DNA of 64,000 bases from Bacillota bacterium (GTDB lineage: Bacteria; Bacillota; SHA-98; UBA4971). The translations under genes were made by a program, and so were the position numbers. This document shows positions 26,667-34,935 of the stretch, one piece after another; positions within the stretch are counted from its first letter, which is position 1, and each line of letters starts with the position of its first letter. Where the stretch lies: positions 1-64,000 of the forward strand of contig JASEJE010000011.1 in assembly GCA_030024085.1 (NCBI GenBank), read 5' to 3'. The notes under the pieces are model-generated. The model did not search any database. It saw only the letters and a list, made by a program, of their open reading frames with translations, and was not told where the DNA came from.

Positions 26667-28178
26667 TTACCCCGCAGCGCCCATAGCGCGAGTCAGCCTG
26701 GATCGTGCCATGAAGCAAGCCGCCGTCGCGTCCGCAAGCTCAACCTCGGCATCGTGGACGGCAGCGATGGCCGTCGCCACATCCTGGTGCGTTGCCGCCC
26801 CGAGTCGGTACTGCTCCTGGACGGTGTCGAGAGCAAGCCGGGCGCGCTCGAGGCCTGACTTCGCCAGCGAGAGCGTCGCCTCTGCCTCGAGTAGGCCGTA
26901 ATACGCCTCTGTGACCTCGACCACCACGGCCGTCTTCGTGCTTTCCAGACGCTCACGCGCGGACACAACGGCGTCGTCGGCGGCCTTTACGACGGCCTCG
27001 GCGCCGAGGTCACGGGTGAGAGTCTTCGTGAGCTGTACGCCTATACTCCATGAGCCGTCGTCTTTTGCGCCCCCAACCAGCGCAACCGACGGGAGAAGCT
27101 CTTTCCGCGCCGATGCGAGTTCGGCCTCCTGATCGCTGACATCTTGCGCCGCCAGGGCAAGCTCCTTGCGACGTTCGAGGGCCGTTTTCACGCATGTTTC
27201 GACCCCGGGGAGCTTCCCGGGCACGTATTCGCCGACGGGTGCCAGGCTGACAGGCGTCTCGAGGCTGCGGCCCGTGACCCTGTTGACGCTCATGTCTGAT
27301 AGCACGACCGCGTGTCTTGCCGCATCCAGCGCAACCTCCGCCGCCGCCACGCGCTGCCTTGCGTCGAGCACGTCGAGGCCGCTTGCATTTCCCTGCTCGA
27401 ACCTGGCCTCGGTGACTGCCAGGTGCTGCTTCACCCTCTCAAGGTTCATCTCCGCCGCCTCGAGCTTGCGCCGATCCCGCAGGGCCGCATGGTATGCCGC
27501 CTCCAGCGAGGCGCGGGCTTTCTCGCGCGCCTGCTCCAGAGCGAACGACGCGCTCCTCACCGCCGCGGTCGCCGCACGCACCTGGGAGTCGACCGGTCCG
27601 GTGCCGGCCCGCCCGGCGCTCGCGGCGCTGCCCGGCAGAGACGACCCCGGCCCCAGAAGGGGGTGAGACACGCTAAGGCTCCAGCCGAGGTCGGTATCCG
27701 GCTCCACGGATGACCCCGACAGATAGGTCCCGTCGATGGAGAGCGTGATCTGCATCTCGCTGATGGGCACGCAAACGTCGAGGCCTGCCGATGAGAGCAA
27801 CCGTATGCCCTCTGGCTCCGGCGTCGGCGCCGGTGCAAGGGGAGCAGGCATGAGCGAGGCCCTGTCTTGAGGGCGCGAGATCTGCGCCGGCCAGGCCCGA
27901 AGGCTTATCGTCGGGCGGCGCAGGGCCTCGGCGGCCGAAAGACGCATCTGCGCCAGCTCGAGAGATCTCTCGGCGGCGGCAACCTCGGGGCTTGAGGCAA
28001 GCGCGAGGGTGATCGCCTCGTCGAGGGTTAGTGTTCCTTCAGGCTGCTTGCTCACCGCGGGTCCCGCCCCACTGGCGGCAACAGGCGCAAGGTAGCAGCA
28101 CGCTGTGATTACAAGTGTGGCGACGCGCGCGAGAGTGCGCCACCACGCCCTATATGTTATGTCTCGTGGAACTCGCAT
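26667..28178 (-). CDS. TolC-family outer membrane protein
   Basis: A 503-residue secreted protein with an N-terminal signal peptide (hydrophobic TLVITACCYLAPVAASGAG), then two TolC repeats rich in long coiled-coil helices (LTLDEAITLALASSPEVAAAE, and LDVLDARQRVAAAEVALDAA). TolC proteins form outer-membrane channels for efflux or secretion. It lies 11 bases after the other TolC gene; no RND, ABC or adaptor partner is adjacent. Confidence 0.88.
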   Translation of the reverse strand: MRVPRDITYRAWWRTLARVATLVITACCYLAPVAASGAGPAVSKQPEGTLTLDEAITLALASSPEVAAAERSLELAQMRLSAAEALRRPTISLRAWPAQISRPQDRASLMPAPLAPAPTPEPEGIRLLSSAGLDVCVPISEMQITLSIDGTYLSGSSVEPDTDLGWSLSVSHPLLGPGSSLPGSAASAGRAGTGPVDSQVRAATAAVRSASFALEQAREKARASLEAAYHAALRDRRKLEAAEMNLERVKQHLAVTEARFEQGNASGLDVLDARQRVAAAEVALDAARHAVVLSDMSVNRVTGRSLETPVSLAPVGEYVPGKLPGVETCVKTALERRKELALAAQDVSDQEAELASARKELLPSVALVGGAKDDGSWSIGVQLTKTLTRDLGAEAVVKAADDAVVSARERLESTKTAVVVEVTEAYYGLLEAEATLSLAKSGLERARLALDTVQEQYRLGAATHQDVATAIAAVHDAEVELADATAACFMARSRLTRAMGAAG

Positions 28179-28189
28179 TCCCGGCCCCC

Positions 28190-29278
28190 CTATTCGGCCC
28201 CGTCGGCGGGATAGCCCACGTAGTTCTCGTAGCGCAGGCGGGCGGTATTGTAGTTCATGATGGCCTGGAGCGCCCCCAACTTCGCCTCGGTCAGGTCGAC
28301 CTGCGCCCCCAGGAGGGAGTTGGCTATCTCCATCCCGTACTCATAGCGCAGCTTCATCACCCTGTAGTTCTCCTCGGCCTGTCCCGCCGCCGCACTGGCG
28401 ATCTTCATCGCCTCCTCCGCCCCGCGCACGGCAAGGTAAAGCCGCCTCGTCTCGACATAGACAGCTCGTCTGACCTCTTCAAGCTGTATCCGCGCCTTCT
28501 CGAGGTTGTTCCGGTTGAGGCGCTTCGTGAGATCGGGCGTATAGTCGTTATCCGAGAACTTCACCTCGAGCTCCGCAATCTCCAGCGCCTCGCGCGCCTG
28601 CACGATCTCCGGCCTGTTCGCGAGCGCCGGCGCCAGGCCTTCCTCGAAGTCCACGTCTCCCTTCAGAGGAACCGCGGAGTCCAGCGCGATCACGCGGGTC
28701 GCGAGGTCCACGCCGATCATCTGCTTGAGCCCGAGTTCCGCCATCTCGAGGTCGTTCCGGGCCGAGCACACTTCGGACGAGGCGCGCGCAAGTTGGATCT
28801 CTGCAGCCAGGACCTCGAGCTTACTTGCAAGCCCGGAGTCGAATTTCAACTTCACGATGCGGAGGTTCTCCTTAGCCTGCTCCTCCGCCTTCTGCCGGAT
28901 GGCAAGCTTCTCCCGGGCAGCCACCAGAGCGTAGTAGGCGCTATCAACGTCGAGCATGAGATCTTGCCGTTTTGCAACAAGAGCCCTTGCAGCGTTCTTC
29001 CTCGCATTCTCCGCCCTCTTCGCGGCCACCACCGAGGGTCTCACAAGCCCCTCGGCGCGCGTTATGTCAAGCTGTATCTTGGCGGCTTCGAAGTCCAGCC
29101 TCGCCGCTGCGTAAGACCCATTGTGCTCAATCGCCAGCTTGCGCGCGTCCTCGATGCTGAGCTTGAGCTCGTCGTCGGCAGCGGCGACCATGTGCGGCGC
29201 CACACCCACGTAGAGCACAGCCGCCATGGCCACAAGGCATGCTAGCGTTCTTCGTCTCGTCCGTATCCTTCTATCCAA
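28190..29278 (-). CDS. TolC-family outer membrane protein (shorter paralogue)
   Basis: A 362-residue protein with a signal peptide (ACLVAMAAVLYVGVAPHMVAAA), then two helical-hairpin halves (LSIEDARKLAIEHNGSYAAA; DSGLASKLEVLAAEIQLARA), shorter than most TolC proteins (400-500 residues). TTG 29278 is preceded by GGGAGGGACGAAGG. It is the first gene of a TolC pair and divergent from the 29440 unit. Confidence 0.85.
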   Translation of the reverse strand: MDRRIRTRRRTLACLVAMAAVLYVGVAPHMVAAADDELKLSIEDARKLAIEHNGSYAAARLDFEAAKIQLDITRAEGLVRPSVVAAKRAENARKNAARALVAKRQDLMLDVDSAYYALVAAREKLAIRQKAEEQAKENLRIVKLKFDSGLASKLEVLAAEIQLARASSEVCSARNDLEMAELGLKQMIGVDLATRVIALDSAVPLKGDVDFEEGLAPALANRPEIVQAREALEIAELEVKFSDNDYTPDLTKRLNRNNLEKARIQLEEVRRAVYVETRRLYLAVRGAEEAMKIASAAAGQAEENYRVMKLRYEYGMEIANSLLGAQVDLTEAKLGALQAIMNYNTARLRYENYVGYPADGAE

Positions 29279-29628: not shown

Positions 29629-29951
29629 GACTGCCCGATTCATTAGCAGGCCTATTCCGGAATTACGGTTTCGACGCGCTGGACGACGAACGCCACCGTG
29701 GCCTTATCGTGCGTACCGTCCTTGCGCGCGGCACGTGGGAACAGATCCTGTGGCTGTTCCGCCGTTACGGACGAGACGGGGTGAGAGAGGTATTCGTAGA
29801 GGACTACTACGGCCCACGGACCCTGCCTGATACCACACGAAGGCTCTGGGAACTCATGTTCATTGAGCAGCCTCTGCCCGAGGACCCGCACCCGGCCGGC
29901 CGCTGGCGTTGCCGCCGGGCCGTGGTGACGAATCGCGGACCAGAGCGCTAA
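29625..29951 (+). CDS. DUF6922-like small protein
   Basis: A 108-residue protein. The first 80 residues (LPDSLAGLFRNYGFDALDDE, HRGLIVRTVLARGTWEQI, RRYGRDGVREVFVEDYYGPR, RRLWELMF) match the pattern of DUF6922 proteins, which often precede AbiEii-type nucleotidyltransferase toxins. Here no toxin gene follows: the convergent transporter ATPase gene overlaps its last four bases. The tail after residue 90 is not family-like and may be read-through into unrelated sequence. Confidence 0.7.
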   Translation: MRLPDSLAGLFRNYGFDALDDERHRGLIVRTVLARGTWEQILWLFRRYGRDGVREVFVEDYYGPRTLPDTTRRLWELMFIEQPLPEDPHPAGRWRCRRAVVTNRGPER

Positions 29952-31177
29952 TCGCGGCGTGCGTGGCACCGCACGAGGCGGCGGCCGTCAACGGCCACAA
30001 GCTCGGGCTGAGAGATATCACAGCAAGGTCTGCGCACATCGCAGCGGGGAGCGAAGCTGCACCCGGGCCCAAGGGCAGCGAGGTCGGGAACCTCACCCAT
30101 GATCGGCGTGAGAGGCTTCCTTTCGCCGAGGCGCGGGATGGAGCGCAGAAGGCCCCGCGTGTAGGGGTGTACCGGATCCTCGAGCACCGCGTCGATGGGC
30201 CCCTGCTCCACGATCTGCCCGGCGTACATGACCGCAACCTCACGGCAAAACTCAGCGGCAATCGCCAGGTCGTGCGTGACCAGCACGATCGCGGTGCCGG
30301 TGGTCTCATTGATCTCTCTCATGAGGTCCAACACCTGGGCCTGAATGGTCACGTCCAGCGCAGTAGTGGGCTCATCTGCCAGCAGAATCTTCGGCCTGCA
30401 CGCAAGCGCTGTCGCTATGAGGACGCGTTGCTGCATCCCCCCGCTGAACTGGTGCGGATACTCGAGGTGCCTGGTTTCAGGCGACGGAATCCCAACCTGC
30501 CGCATGAGCTCGATGACCATCTCCCGCTGCCGCACGCGGCTGCGGCGCGTAAGGCTCGCCGGGAGACCCGGCAGGAACCCGTGAACCCGAAGGGACTCGG
30601 CTATCTGGTCTCCCACCCGGAACGCGGGGTTGAGCGTGGTCATGGGGTCCTGGAACACCATGGCGATGTCCCTGCCCCGCACCTCCCGCATCTCCCTCGC
30701 GCTGAGGCTCATGAGATCGCGTCCCACAAACATGATACTTCCCGCGACTATCCGCCCCGGGTGCGGCACAAGCCGCATTATCGAAAGGAGGCAGGCGCTC
30801 TTCCCGCAACCCGACTCTCCGACGATGGCGAGAACGTCGCCCTCCCCGAGCGTCAGGTCCACGCCGCGCACTGCCTGAACATCGCCCCGGGTGGTGGGGT
30901 ACACCGTGGACAGGCCGGACACCTGCAGCACAGCACAGGCCCTTTCGTCAGCGGGGCGAACGGCGTCTGCTGCGACCCGTGCAGGAGCCCAGCCTGCCGC
31001 CACGCCCGACTCGCGCACTGGCTCAATGCCTGCGGTGTAGCCTGCGGATTGGCTACGAGCGTTGTTTACGGTCCCACCCTGCTTACGCGGGATATCCGGG
31101 CCCGGAGCGCAGTCTGCGGATCGCCCAGGGGCGCGGCGTCCGCATGGGCCTGGGATGGTCCCCGTCTCCAATGCCAA
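29948..31177 (-). CDS. dppD: Peptide/nickel-type ABC transporter ATPase (DppD/OppD-like)
   Basis: A 409-residue ATPase. After a non-conserved 80-residue N-terminal extension come Walker A GESGCGKSA, the Q-loop VFQDPMTTLNP, signature QFSGGMQQRV, Walker B ILLADEPTTALDV and the C-terminal oligopeptide-type region (HPYTRGLLRSIP, CSFAPRCDVRRPCC) with cysteines. TTG 31177 is chosen because AAGGAGGGG stands six bases upstream; an internal start cannot be excluded. It is the last gene of the operon; the usual DppF partner is absent here but a candidate lies at 44892-45908. Confidence 0.92.
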   Translation of the reverse strand: MALETGTIPGPCGRRAPGRSADCAPGPDIPRKQGGTVNNARSQSAGYTAGIEPVRESGVAAGWAPARVAADAVRPADERACAVLQVSGLSTVYPTTRGDVQAVRGVDLTLGEGDVLAIVGESGCGKSACLLSIMRLVPHPGRIVAGSIMFVGRDLMSLSAREMREVRGRDIAMVFQDPMTTLNPAFRVGDQIAESLRVHGFLPGLPASLTRRSRVRQREMVIELMRQVGIPSPETRHLEYPHQFSGGMQQRVLIATALACRPKILLADEPTTALDVTIQAQVLDLMREINETTGTAIVLVTHDLAIAAEFCREVAVMYAGQIVEQGPIDAVLEDPVHPYTRGLLRSIPRLGERKPLTPIMGEVPDLAALGPGCSFAPRCDVRRPCCDISQPELVAVDGRRLVRCHARRD

Positions 31178-31180
31178 CGC

Positions 31181-32203
31181 CTACCCCTCCTTCAGCCTGG
31201 GGTCGAGGACGTCGCGGAGCGCCTCCCCGACGAGGTTTATCGCCAGGACCAGCCCCACGAGGGCGAGCCCCGGCAGCGTGGCAACCCACCACGCCGTGAG
31301 CATGTAGCGGCGCCCGTCGTTCACCATGGACCCCCACGCCGGGATGCGCGGCGGTATCCCGAGGCCCAGGAAGCTCAGGGACGACTCCAGGACGATCATG
31401 TTCCCCATCCGGAGGGTCCCCAGGACCAGTATCGAGTGGACGACGTTGGGCAGGATCTCCGAGCAGATTATGGCGGCGTGTGACCGCCCGAGCGCCCTTG
31501 CCGCCTCCACGTACTCCCGCGTCTTCTCCGACATGACCTCGGCCCTCGCAAGCCGGTAGAACTCAACCCAGCCCTTGAAACTCAGGGCCCAGATGAGGTT
31601 CCAGAACCCCGGCCCGAGGACGGCCATGGCCCCGATCACGAAAATCAGGTATGGGAACGCAAGCAGCAGGTCTGTGAACCTCGACACGATCCTGTCGAAG
31701 GAACCGCGGAAATAGCCTGCCACCACCCCAAGGCCCACGCCGACCGTGACCGAGATGGCGATGGTGAGGACTCCCACCAGGATCGAAACCCGCGCGCCGT
31801 AGATTATCCGGGACAGGATGTCCCGCCCGAGCTGATCGGTGCCCAGGGGGAACTCACCTATCCAGGATGGCGGCGCAAGGCGTTCGGAAAGGGCCACCTG
31901 GTCGGGGGCGCAAGGCGCCACCCATGGCGCAAAGATCGCCACCGCGACGTACAGCAGGATCACCACGCCGCCGATGACCGCGGCCGGATTTCCCGCCATC
32001 TGCCTCGCGAAGCTCAGGAAGTTCCTCACCGCAAGGCCCAGCGGCCCGGTGCCCCACGACCCGCGCGTCCGGGCCGCCCGCACCTCGTAGGCCTCCTGGA
32101 AATCGTAAGGTCGCCTGACCTCCCGGCCAGGCGCCGCACGGCGCCCCTCGTCTATCGCTTCGATTCCTTCCAGGCATATGGGCGAGTCTCGCAAGGCTCT
32201 CAC
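31181..32203 (-). CDS. dppC: Peptide/nickel-type ABC transporter permease (DppC-like)
   Basis: A 340-residue inner-membrane permease with about six helices, the LGTDQLGRDILSRIIYGARVS motif after the first periplasmic loop, and the EAA loop (EYVEAARALGRSHAAIICSEILPN without its ends). It pairs with DppB as the channel of the importer. GTG 32203 has GAGG at five bases. It is three bases from dppD. Confidence 0.93.
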   Translation of the reverse strand: MRALRDSPICLEGIEAIDEGRRAAPGREVRRPYDFQEAYEVRAARTRGSWGTGPLGLAVRNFLSFARQMAGNPAAVIGGVVILLYVAVAIFAPWVAPCAPDQVALSERLAPPSWIGEFPLGTDQLGRDILSRIIYGARVSILVGVLTIAISVTVGVGLGVVAGYFRGSFDRIVSRFTDLLLAFPYLIFVIGAMAVLGPGFWNLIWALSFKGWVEFYRLARAEVMSEKTREYVEAARALGRSHAAIICSEILPNVVHSILVLGTLRMGNMIVLESSLSFLGLGIPPRIPAWGSMVNDGRRYMLTAWWVATLPGLALVGLVLAINLVGEALRDVLDPRLKEG

Positions 32204-32234: not shown

Positions 32235-33251
32235 CTAAAGCGTCATCTTCGGGTTGAGGTACGTATACAGGACGTCGGTCGCCAGGTTCACGACAACGAA
32301 TGTCAGCGCATACACCATGACAGCCGCCTGCACCAGGGGATAGTCCCTCGAGAAGATGGCGTCCACGACCACGCGGCCGAGGCCGGGCCACCCGAAGATG
32401 GACTCCACGATCATGTTCCCGCCGAGGAGCGTGCCAACCTGGAGGCCGACCACCGTGACCGTGGGGATGAGCGCGTTGCGCAGCGCGTGGCGGATGGTCA
32501 CCGCTCGCTCGACGACACCCTTCGCTCTCGCGAAGAGGACATAGTCCGCGCGCAGCACTTCCAGCATGCTCGACCGCACGACCCTGGCCACCACCGCAGC
32601 CACGCCGGCGCCCAGCGTGGCGGCGGGGAGGGCGAGGTGCTTCAGGGCGTCCCACAGGGCCGGCATGTTGCCCGTCAGAAGGGCGTCCACCGTGAAGAGC
32701 CCTGTGATCGTCGCAGGCTCAAACCCATAGGTGATCCGTCCCGAGGTTGGCAGCCACCGCAGGTGCAGCGAGAACACGATGATCCCGAGTATCCCCAGCC
32801 AGAACGCGGGCATTGATATCCCGAGAAACGACGCGGCCATGCTGGTCCGGTCGATGAACGACCGTTGCCGGACCGCAGATACAACGCCGATGGGCACGGC
32901 AATCACGAGCGCGAAGAGCAGCGAACACAGGGCAAGCTCCATGGTGGCCGGCAGCGCCTCCAGGATCACCACCGCCACCGGACGCGAGCTTGGAATGGAG
33001 TACCCGAGGTCGCCTCGGACAAGCCCGGCGAGGTATCTCCCAAGCTGGACGGGAAGGGATTGGTCCAGGCCAAGCTCGGTCTTGAGGGCGTGGATGTCCT
33101 CCTGGGTGACGCCGCCGGCCTCGCCGATCATGATGTCAACCGGGTCACCCGGCATGAGCCGCATGAAGATGAACACGGCGATGGCGACGCCAAGGGCTAT
33201 GGGTATCGTCGCAAGCACCCGTTCGAGAATCTGCACGTGTGTTCGTCGCAT
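32235..33251 (-). CDS. dppB: Peptide/nickel-type ABC transporter permease (DppB-like)
   Basis: A 338-residue permease with an N-terminal helix (RVLATIPIALGVAIAVFIFMR), the MPGDPVDIMIG loop and an EAA motif (YVLFARAKGVVERAVTIRHALRN without its ends), as in DppB. ATG 33251 sits seven bases after GGGGGG; a TTG two codons earlier abuts that site. It follows the binding-protein gene by about 100 bases. Confidence 0.93.
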   Translation of the reverse strand: MRRTHVQILERVLATIPIALGVAIAVFIFMRLMPGDPVDIMIGEAGGVTQEDIHALKTELGLDQSLPVQLGRYLAGLVRGDLGYSIPSSRPVAVVILEALPATMELALCSLLFALVIAVPIGVVSAVRQRSFIDRTSMAASFLGISMPAFWLGILGIIVFSLHLRWLPTSGRITYGFEPATITGLFTVDALLTGNMPALWDALKHLALPAATLGAGVAAVVARVVRSSMLEVLRADYVLFARAKGVVERAVTIRHALRNALIPTVTVVGLQVGTLLGGNMIVESIFGWPGLGRVVVDAIFSRDYPLVQAAVMVYALTFVVVNLATDVLYTYLNPKMTL

Positions 33252-33313
33252 ACGCAACCCCCCACGGTTCCCGGCGTCGCCTTCATCCGCCCCGGGGATG
33301 TCCGCGGCCGCCG

Positions 33314-33364
33314 CGCTACTTCGCCATTTCCGCTGCCTCGCTACCTCCGCAACCTCGCTATTTC
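33314..33364. repeat. Degenerate 17-bp x 3 tandem repeat at a stop codon
   Basis: Three units of about 17 bp, each an 8+9 pair of CGCTAxxT-type words, end inside the last codons of the binding-protein gene; the TAG stop lies in the last unit. A similar 8-bp array lies over the stop codon of another binding-protein gene at 51772-51811. Confidence 0.6.
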
Positions 33365-34935
33365 ACAGAATAGCCCGCTTCCTTCAGCAGCTCCTTCGCC
33401 CTCGCCGGATCATACGGATAGGGTTTGAGATCGGGGTTGAACCCGAACCCACTCGGCAGGAACGCCGTGGCCAGGTGGGTGGCAGTGCCCCCATAGATGG
33501 TCTCCAGGATCCTGTCCCAGTTGACTGCGTAGTTCATCGCCCTCCGCACCCTGGCATCGTTGAAGGGCGGCTTTGCGCAGTTCAGCTCCACGCAGTAGAC
33601 GCGGGTCCCCTCGACGCTCTTCACCTGCACGTTCTTGTCCCTTTTGAGGCTGGCAGCGATGTCGGGCGGCACCTGCTGCACGATCTGCACCTCGCCTGCC
33701 TTGAGCGCGGCGATGCGCACCGTGGGGTCAGGCATCATCCTGAAGATGGCCCGTTTCACCTTCGCCGGCCCCATGGGCGGCAGGTCTGGCGATCCGCCGT
33801 AGTAGTCGTCGAACCTCTCCATCACGATCTGGTCGTCGAGCCTGCCCCCGACGAACTTGAACGGACCGCAGCCCACGGGCTTCCTGGCAAACTCGTCGTC
33901 GCCGACCTTTTGTATGTAGTCCTTCGGCACCACCTGAATGTGCACCAGGCCCTGCAGGAACACGGGGAAGGGGCTGGCCAGGGTAAACCTGACCGTGTAC
34001 TGGTCAACCTTCTCCACCTTCTCCAGCGGGCCGAGAAGCCCCTTTCGAGGCGACGACCGGCCGCCGATGGCGCCTTCCTTCAGAACGCGCTCGAAGCTAT
34101 ACACCACGTCGTCCGCATCGAGAGCCTCGCCGCTATGGAACTTGATGCCCTTGCGGATTTTAAAGACGTATACGTTGTCCGCGGGCGTCGTCCACGACTC
34201 GGCGATCTCCGGCACCACCTTGCCGTCCCAGGTGCGGGTCACAAGCCCGTCGAACATGTTGCGAAGCACGGTCTCAGTGTCCCTCTCACGGTGCATCGCC
34301 GGGTCCAGGGACACCGCCTTGTCGGTCTTCATGCCCACGACTATGGTATCGCCGCGCGTAAGCCCGACATCGTGAAGGTTGATGCGGGAGTCCATGGCCG
34401 GTTGCCAGTTCTGCACCTCGGCCCTGGCGGCTTCGGTCTCGCTGAGGTAATACCCGAAGATCCAGGGCGCGTCCTCATACAGGATCGACTGGGCCTCGTA
34501 ATAGGCCTTTCGCCGGACCTCCGGATCGATGGTGGTGAGCGCCTTGTCGACGGCACGGTCGAACGCCGGGTTGCTGTAGTGCGAGTAGTTGCCTCGGTCC
34601 CCCGTGCGCAGCTTTGGCAGTGCGAGGTCGAAGGGATCGAAGTATGCGCTGCCCCAGTCGGTCAGATACATCTGCCGCTCGCCTTTGACTGCGCTGTCTT
34701 TGAGTGCGCTCCACTCCCAGATTCGCGCGTCAGCCTGAACGCCGATGGCCCGCAGGTCGGCTGCGATTGCCTCAGCCTCGTCAGCCCTGTTCGCCTCGGC
34801 ATCGATGACGACGGTCAAGGTTTTCCCGGCCGCCTTGAGCGGTGCACCACTCAGAAACCCCATTGAGAGCAACGCAAGAGCTACCACGGCGCCCGCAACC
34901 AAAGAAACCTTTCCACGGACCAGACTTGCTCTCAT
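33358..34935 (-). CDS. SBP_bac_5 peptide-type solute-binding protein, apparently circularly permuted
   Basis: A 525-residue extracytoplasmic binding protein with a signal peptide (VAGAVVALALLSMGFLSGAPLKAA without ends) and no lipobox Cys. Residues 38-192 (KTLTVVIDAEANRADEAEAI, MYLTDWGSAYFDPFDLALP, NYSHYSNPAFDRAVDKAL, YYEAQSILYEDAPWIFGYYL) look like the usual C-terminal segment of SBP_bac_5 proteins. Residues 197-525 look like the usual N-terminal segment (VSLDPAMHRERDTETVLRNM, KIRKGIKFHSGEALDADDVV, KPVGCGPFKF) and stop at YDPARAKELLKEAGYSVK, exactly where the other part normally follows. AAGGAGG precedes the start. It heads the dpp-like operon. Confidence 0.88.
   Translation of the reverse strand: MRASLVRGKVSLVAGAVVALALLSMGFLSGAPLKAAGKTLTVVIDAEANRADEAEAIAADLRAIGVQADARIWEWSALKDSAVKGERQMYLTDWGSAYFDPFDLALPKLRTGDRGNYSHYSNPAFDRAVDKALTTIDPEVRRKAYYEAQSILYEDAPWIFGYYLSETEAARAEVQNWQPAMDSRINLHDVGLTRGDTIVVGMKTDKAVSLDPAMHRERDTETVLRNMFDGLVTRTWDGKVVPEIAESWTTPADNVYVFKIRKGIKFHSGEALDADDVVYSFERVLKEGAIGGRSSPRKGLLGPLEKVEKVDQYTVRFTLASPFPVFLQGLVHIQVVPKDYIQKVGDDEFARKPVGCGPFKFVGGRLDDQIVMERFDDYYGGSPDLPPMGPAKVKRAIFRMMPDPTVRIAALKAGEVQIVQQVPPDIAASLKRDKNVQVKSVEGTRVYCVELNCAKPPFNDARVRRAMNYAVNWDRILETIYGGTATHLATAFLPSGFGFNPDLKPYPYDPARAKELLKEAGYSVK

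Follow-up and report, generated by a model that had tools for sequence, protein, structure and literature searches.

Natural circular permutation of proteins is uncommon, and cases in which one family has been permuted more than once at the same loop are even rarer. Among the two-lobed binding proteins of ABC transporters, a natural circular permutation has been described in Tp0684/TpMglB-2 of Treponema pallidum, classified as 'Type Ic' or 'Cluster Bc' (PMC4990184). Glucose binding by TpMglB-2 was established by crystal structure and binding assays, a fourth lobe crossing was reported, and permuted relatives were found in Gram-positive bacteria (PMC4990184). For the SBP_bac_5 family, no report of circular permutation was found in the open-access PMC literature, as the earlier note on this DNA had supposed; in PMC2588589, SBP_bac_5 appears solely as a table entry. 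The closest known case to the protein described here is thus Treponema MglB-2, which belongs to another class of solute-binding proteins (SBPs).

The protein P0001, encoded in the window (the whole stretch of 64,000 nucleotides analysed), is an SBP_bac_5 protein in circularly permuted order. It represents the same kind of event as TpMglB-2, with a chain order permuted relative to its own class, whereas TpMglB-2 is a sugar-binding protein of type I/cluster B with a different cut site. P0001 has no type I/cluster B sugar-binding match: PF00496 is the sole Pfam family found by hmmscan, in two stretches, with 300 bits for the whole protein. Like DppA, OppA, NikA, GsiB, HbpA and SatA, P0001 matches PF00496 above the cut-off in both parts and lies in an Opp-type operon; unlike them, it has these parts swapped, with the new chain ends in the loop past the AKxLLxEAG helix. 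The coordinates of the locus and of the other permuted proteins are collected in Table 1.

Table 1. Features of the permuted locus in the window, and members of the other permuted clades (L011 is a normal-order relative)
Feature	Position	Strand	Basis or remark
Clade A protein P0001, circularly permuted SBP_bac_5 solute-binding protein, 525 aa	33358..34935	minus	PF00496 order, orthologues, AlphaFold2, dN/dS
Signal peptide, residues 1 to ~37, without lipobox in P0001	34825..34935	minus	sequence inspection; residues 1-35 of low confidence in the model
Moved segment (C-terminal in normal-order proteins), residues 38-192	34360..34824	minus	model positions 361/368-527; L011 371-529, 55% identity
Linker TRGDT, residues 193-197, from old C-terminus to old N-terminus	34345..34359	minus	2-residue gap between HMM matches
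Normally N-terminal segment, residues 198-525, ending directly past the AKELLKEAGY helix	33361..34344	minus	model 42-367; L011 49-375, 57% identity
OppB/DppB-type permease	32235..33257	minus	PF00528 + PF19300; 52-64% identical to the permease adjoining normal-order relatives
OppC/DppC-type permease	31181..32203	minus	PF00528 + PF12911; synteny
OppD/DppD-type ATPase	29948..31177	minus	PF00005 + PF08352; NCBIfam DppD/OppD-like
Clade B protein P0002, OppA-like, in the same genome as P0001	G000:C3:33097-34770 (= L056:7098-8774)	plus	upstream of its own oppBCDF
Clade C members	L090:6840-8546, L091:6644-8332, L145-L149		cut site a few residues beyond that of A and B
Clade D members	L089:6649-8349; relatives L092, L093, L097, L098, L101-L114, L116, L117

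The swapped order was seen with two profiles. A profile search of the genome contigs placed PF00496 model positions 290-362 at C2:34606-34824 (33.2 bits) and positions 1-281 at C2:33361-34221 (269.6 bits), the latter lying downstream of the former in the gene; both pieces exceed the cut-off of 32.4 bits. They lie in a single open frame without stops, read from an ATG on the minus strand. Since the collinear order is absent, with 290-362 preceding 1-281, P0001 is classed as a permuted variant and not as an ordinary member of the family. A custom HMM, whose 17 source proteins all have the normal order and include DppA, GsiB and NikA of E. coli, aligned residues 33-192 with its positions 361-527 and residues 195-523 with its positions 42-367. 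This division agrees with the one proposed in the earlier note (residues 38-192 as the C-terminal part and 197-525 as the N-terminal part), and neither profile gave a single collinear match. The short linker described there was likewise borne out: the two HMM matches lie 2 residues apart at TRGDT, and the junction reads LHDVGL-TR-GDTIVVGM, with a linker of ~2-4 residues. Inspection of the N-terminus is also consistent with a signal peptide preceding the transposed part, a hydrophobic signal-like stretch being followed directly by the moved segment.

When the same order test was applied to 210 SBP open reading frames, 71 were permuted, a count that does not represent a frequency, given that the set was gathered with permuted queries. 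The other 139 were unflagged, among them E. coli DppA, GsiB and NikA, and also L009, L071 and L153, three copies of the permuted protein that are broken or truncated at contig ends.

Homologues with the same order were found in related genomes of several families. Full-length permuted clade A orthologues are present in genomes of the source family, the copy in G002 being split by a contig end, and in G023, G069, G107, G193, G200, G221, G160, G186, G234 and G241. Five families other than the source family are represented in the phylum. A further orthologue lies on CP062796.1 of Ca. Fermentithermobacillus carboniphilus, a chromosome described as complete. A join of two gene fragments during assembly or binning was considered, given that the window was drawn from a 65-contig assembly and that many orthologues come from metagenome-assembled genomes. 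However, the same order and junction recur in independent assemblies of several families, including G023, G069 and G200 (1 contig each), G107 (2 contigs), G193 (3 contigs) and CP062796.1. Because full-length orthologues of the same order are present in several families, near-closed genomes of 1-3 contigs among them, P0001 is not an assembly error, and the chance of such an artefact is close to negligible.

Selection on the two halves points the same way. Against genus orthologues, dN/dS is 0.04-0.11 for the whole protein, the moved part and the unmoved part. Neither half thus has a value much above 0.1, and both are under purifying selection as judged from these sequence comparisons. These values also lead to rejection of the reading that P0001 is decaying and has lost its function. 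One orthologue, L153 (G241:C44:5387-6904), does carry a TAG inside the matched stretch, and is either a pseudogene or affected by a sequencing error; nevertheless, clade A proteins from different families share 57-90% identity and many invariant positions, the operon is intact, and a signal peptide or lipobox is retained, so that decay is extremely unlikely. The lipobox was identified by inspection and pattern in orthologues L008, L072, L154 and L156-L158.

Three minus-strand genes lie downstream of P0001, encoding an OppB-type permease, an OppC-type permease and an OppD-type ATPase. No second ATPase (OppF) was recognised beside this operon, a single ATPase adjoining P0001. The layout SBP-permease-permease-ATPase is common to permuted and normal-order relatives, the permeases being 50-64% identical between them; the normal-order loci with this layout, where a second ATPase is present, belong to Bacillota, Chloroflexota and Alphaproteobacteria. 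Normal-order clade A orthologues (L011-L042, L159 and L160, from Chloroflexota, Paracoccaceae and other Bacillota) occupy the same operon position with the same permeases, and share 32-57% identity with the permuted form over each half. Because the same layout and related permeases are found at normal-order loci, the permutation most likely took place in situ, in an otherwise ordinary importer.

Some of the normal-order clade A orthologues differ in carrying a C45/AAT-like gene after the ATPases, which is absent at that place in the permuted operon L008. This acyltransferase-like gene follows the second ATPase in L023 (11431-12543) and L014 (11937-13013), and could be a substrate clue there, but only as a hint. 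In L008, the sole permuted operon examined at this position, the corresponding gene is beta-lactamase-like. Downstream of the transporter operon of the window, two genes of the TolC family of outer-membrane efflux proteins lie on the minus strand (28190-29278 and 26667-28178), which suggests that this member of the Bacillota has an outer membrane.

Permuted SBP_bac_5 proteins are not confined to the orthologues of P0001. Searches with PF00496 over the source family, and with P0001-P0004 over 249 genomes of the phylum, revealed four permuted clades, A to D, among the genomes searched. Clade B is also represented in G001-G004 and G200, the last of which is a single contig. Clade C occurs in G001 and G005, and permuted proteins 29-33% identical to it are found in G020, G034 and G066. 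The cut falls within the same loop after the AKxLLxEAG helix in clades A, B and C (model ~367-380). Clade D proteins, of ~570 aa, have a different cut, after an NPxYW motif, and run from model position 234 to 516 and then from 42 to 235; they are widespread in the phylum, with members in families f1, f9, f38, f63, f73, f78 and f105. The permuted clades start with a signal-like sequence, in some cases with a lipobox.

At least 30 of the 249 phylum genomes, from 13 families, carry at least one permuted SBP_bac_5 protein, although the sample contains close relatives of the window and this proportion is not an unbiased rate. PF00496 searches over 18 further genome handles detected no permuted pair besides clade D in G068 and G092. 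When genome contigs across phyla were scanned with P0001, that is, with a clade A query, permuted forms appeared in Bacillota only. Whether these genomes permute their binding proteins in general was also considered; against this, PF01547 (SBP_bac_1) searches over G000, G200, G069 and G160 gave no swapped pair.

With several SBP_bac_5 genes per genome in the source family, the permuted order might have come from the fusion of fragments of two different SBP_bac_5 genes and not from the permutation of a single protein. For P0001, both halves have the same closest full-length normal-order matches: L011 (55% identity in the moved half and 57% in the other), L159 (51% and 57%) and L160 (46% and 56%). 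In L011, a protein of 533 aa, the matched stretches 49-375 and 371-529 span the mature protein in normal order. P0001 is not a chimera because its two halves share these three closest relatives, and the earlier note's alternative that the two parts match different families fails on the same result. The same holds for clade B, where L123, L124 and L127 are within the top six matches for both halves. Moreover, in clades A and B the extreme termini of the normal protein meet at the junction, separated by 0-7 residues. A fusion of two paralogues is rejected for clades A and B on their shared relatives, and it is very unlikely as an explanation of P0001; the relatives of clades C and D are too distant to exclude a chimera firmly in those two clades.

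The number of permutation events was addressed with trees built after the segments had been put back in normal order by HMM before alignment. In an 89-row tree, A, B, C and D form four groups among normal-order proteins, with a support of 79 for B. AU tests, run on a quick 38-row tree, rejected a single origin for A+B (p 1e-56), A+C (p 7e-5) and B+C (p 3e-4), but not for C+D (p 0.125), so that a common first event is possible for clades C and D. One ancient permuted gene behind A, B and C, their separate origins being a tree error, would fit with their cut in the same loop within one phylum, and the lack of distinction between C and D points in the same direction. However, this reading is rejected by the AU tests, and A and B lie deep inside different normal-order clades, with 44-57% identity to their relatives there; it is therefore considered quite unlikely. 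At least three separate origins of the permutation are supported, and four are likely according to the trees.

The structure prediction, which the earlier note had named as a check, gave a confident fold for P0001 (AlphaFold2; pLDDT 85.1, pTM 0.82), and clade D was modelled with a pLDDT of 91.0 and a pTM of 0.86, from shallow alignments of 19-21 sequences comprising the proteins of the window and of the related loci. The best Foldseek matches were SBP_bac_5 structures for both clade A (~340-380 columns) and clade D (~290-340 columns). Their TM-scores are partial (0.4-0.6) because the order of the segments differs and the aligner is order-dependent. By sequence and by fold, the best PDB matches of P0001 were HbpA, DppA and SatA, and each of the best two PDB alignments was split into two swapped pieces. 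According to the model, P0001 most likely folds into an ordinary two-lobed binding protein. Taken together, P0001 very probably serves an Opp/Dpp-type ABC importer as a binding protein in which natural circular permutation has altered the order of the chain, and it would most likely deliver its putative ligand to the adjacent permeases as the normal-order orthologues do.

In DppA and OppA, the N- and C-termini are both in the same lobe, which fits the joining of the old ends. In the proposed arrangement, the old C-terminal strand would run straight into the old N-terminal strand through the 2-5-residue linker, the new chain ends would have been opened in a surface loop past the AKxLLxEAG helix, and the export signal would have been placed before the new N-terminus. 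The simplest route would be a tandem duplication fused in frame, after which the first copy would lose its first part except for the signal peptide and the second copy would lose its end. No fused tandem intermediate was seen, the relatives showing separate tandem copies only. Such tandem normal-order SBP_bac_5 genes are present at G133:C1:778135-781364, G238:C5:56303-59570 and G070:C1:799188-804613; the G133 copies, at C1:778135 and 780225, are among the nearest relatives of clade B. A permutation by duplication could plausibly start from such tandem normal-order copies.

Candidate short repeats are also found at the breakpoints. In P0001, LKAAG at residues 33-37 resembles LKEAG at 517-521, and in clade D the ends read YWRLNPPK and KWEPWGPR; both pairs are unconserved. 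They are suggestive of a scar left by tandem duplication and were kept out of the evidence.

The permuted set constitutes a natural test of how freely the start and the end of a protein can move. Because permuted and normal-order orthologues occur in the same operon at 46-57% identity, the two forms can be compared directly in how they fold, bind ligand, close their lobes and couple to the permeases. For protein engineering, as in biosensor design, the cut sites mark positions at which an SBP_bac_5 scaffold accepts new termini, and the permutation explains why these genes come out of profile searches as two separate pieces. The repeated origin adds to the interest of the permuted SBP_bac_5 proteins. 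In this part of the Bacillota, SBP_bac_5 would have been permuted repeatedly, at least three and probably four times with two breakpoints, and SBP_bac_1 showed no such case in four of the same genomes. Possibly, as a tentative reading, a specific, selectable advantage or a duplication mechanism that acts recurrently lies behind this pattern in the family and lineage; such an advantage might come, for example, from where the chain end or the lipid anchor is placed with respect to the lobes as they move.
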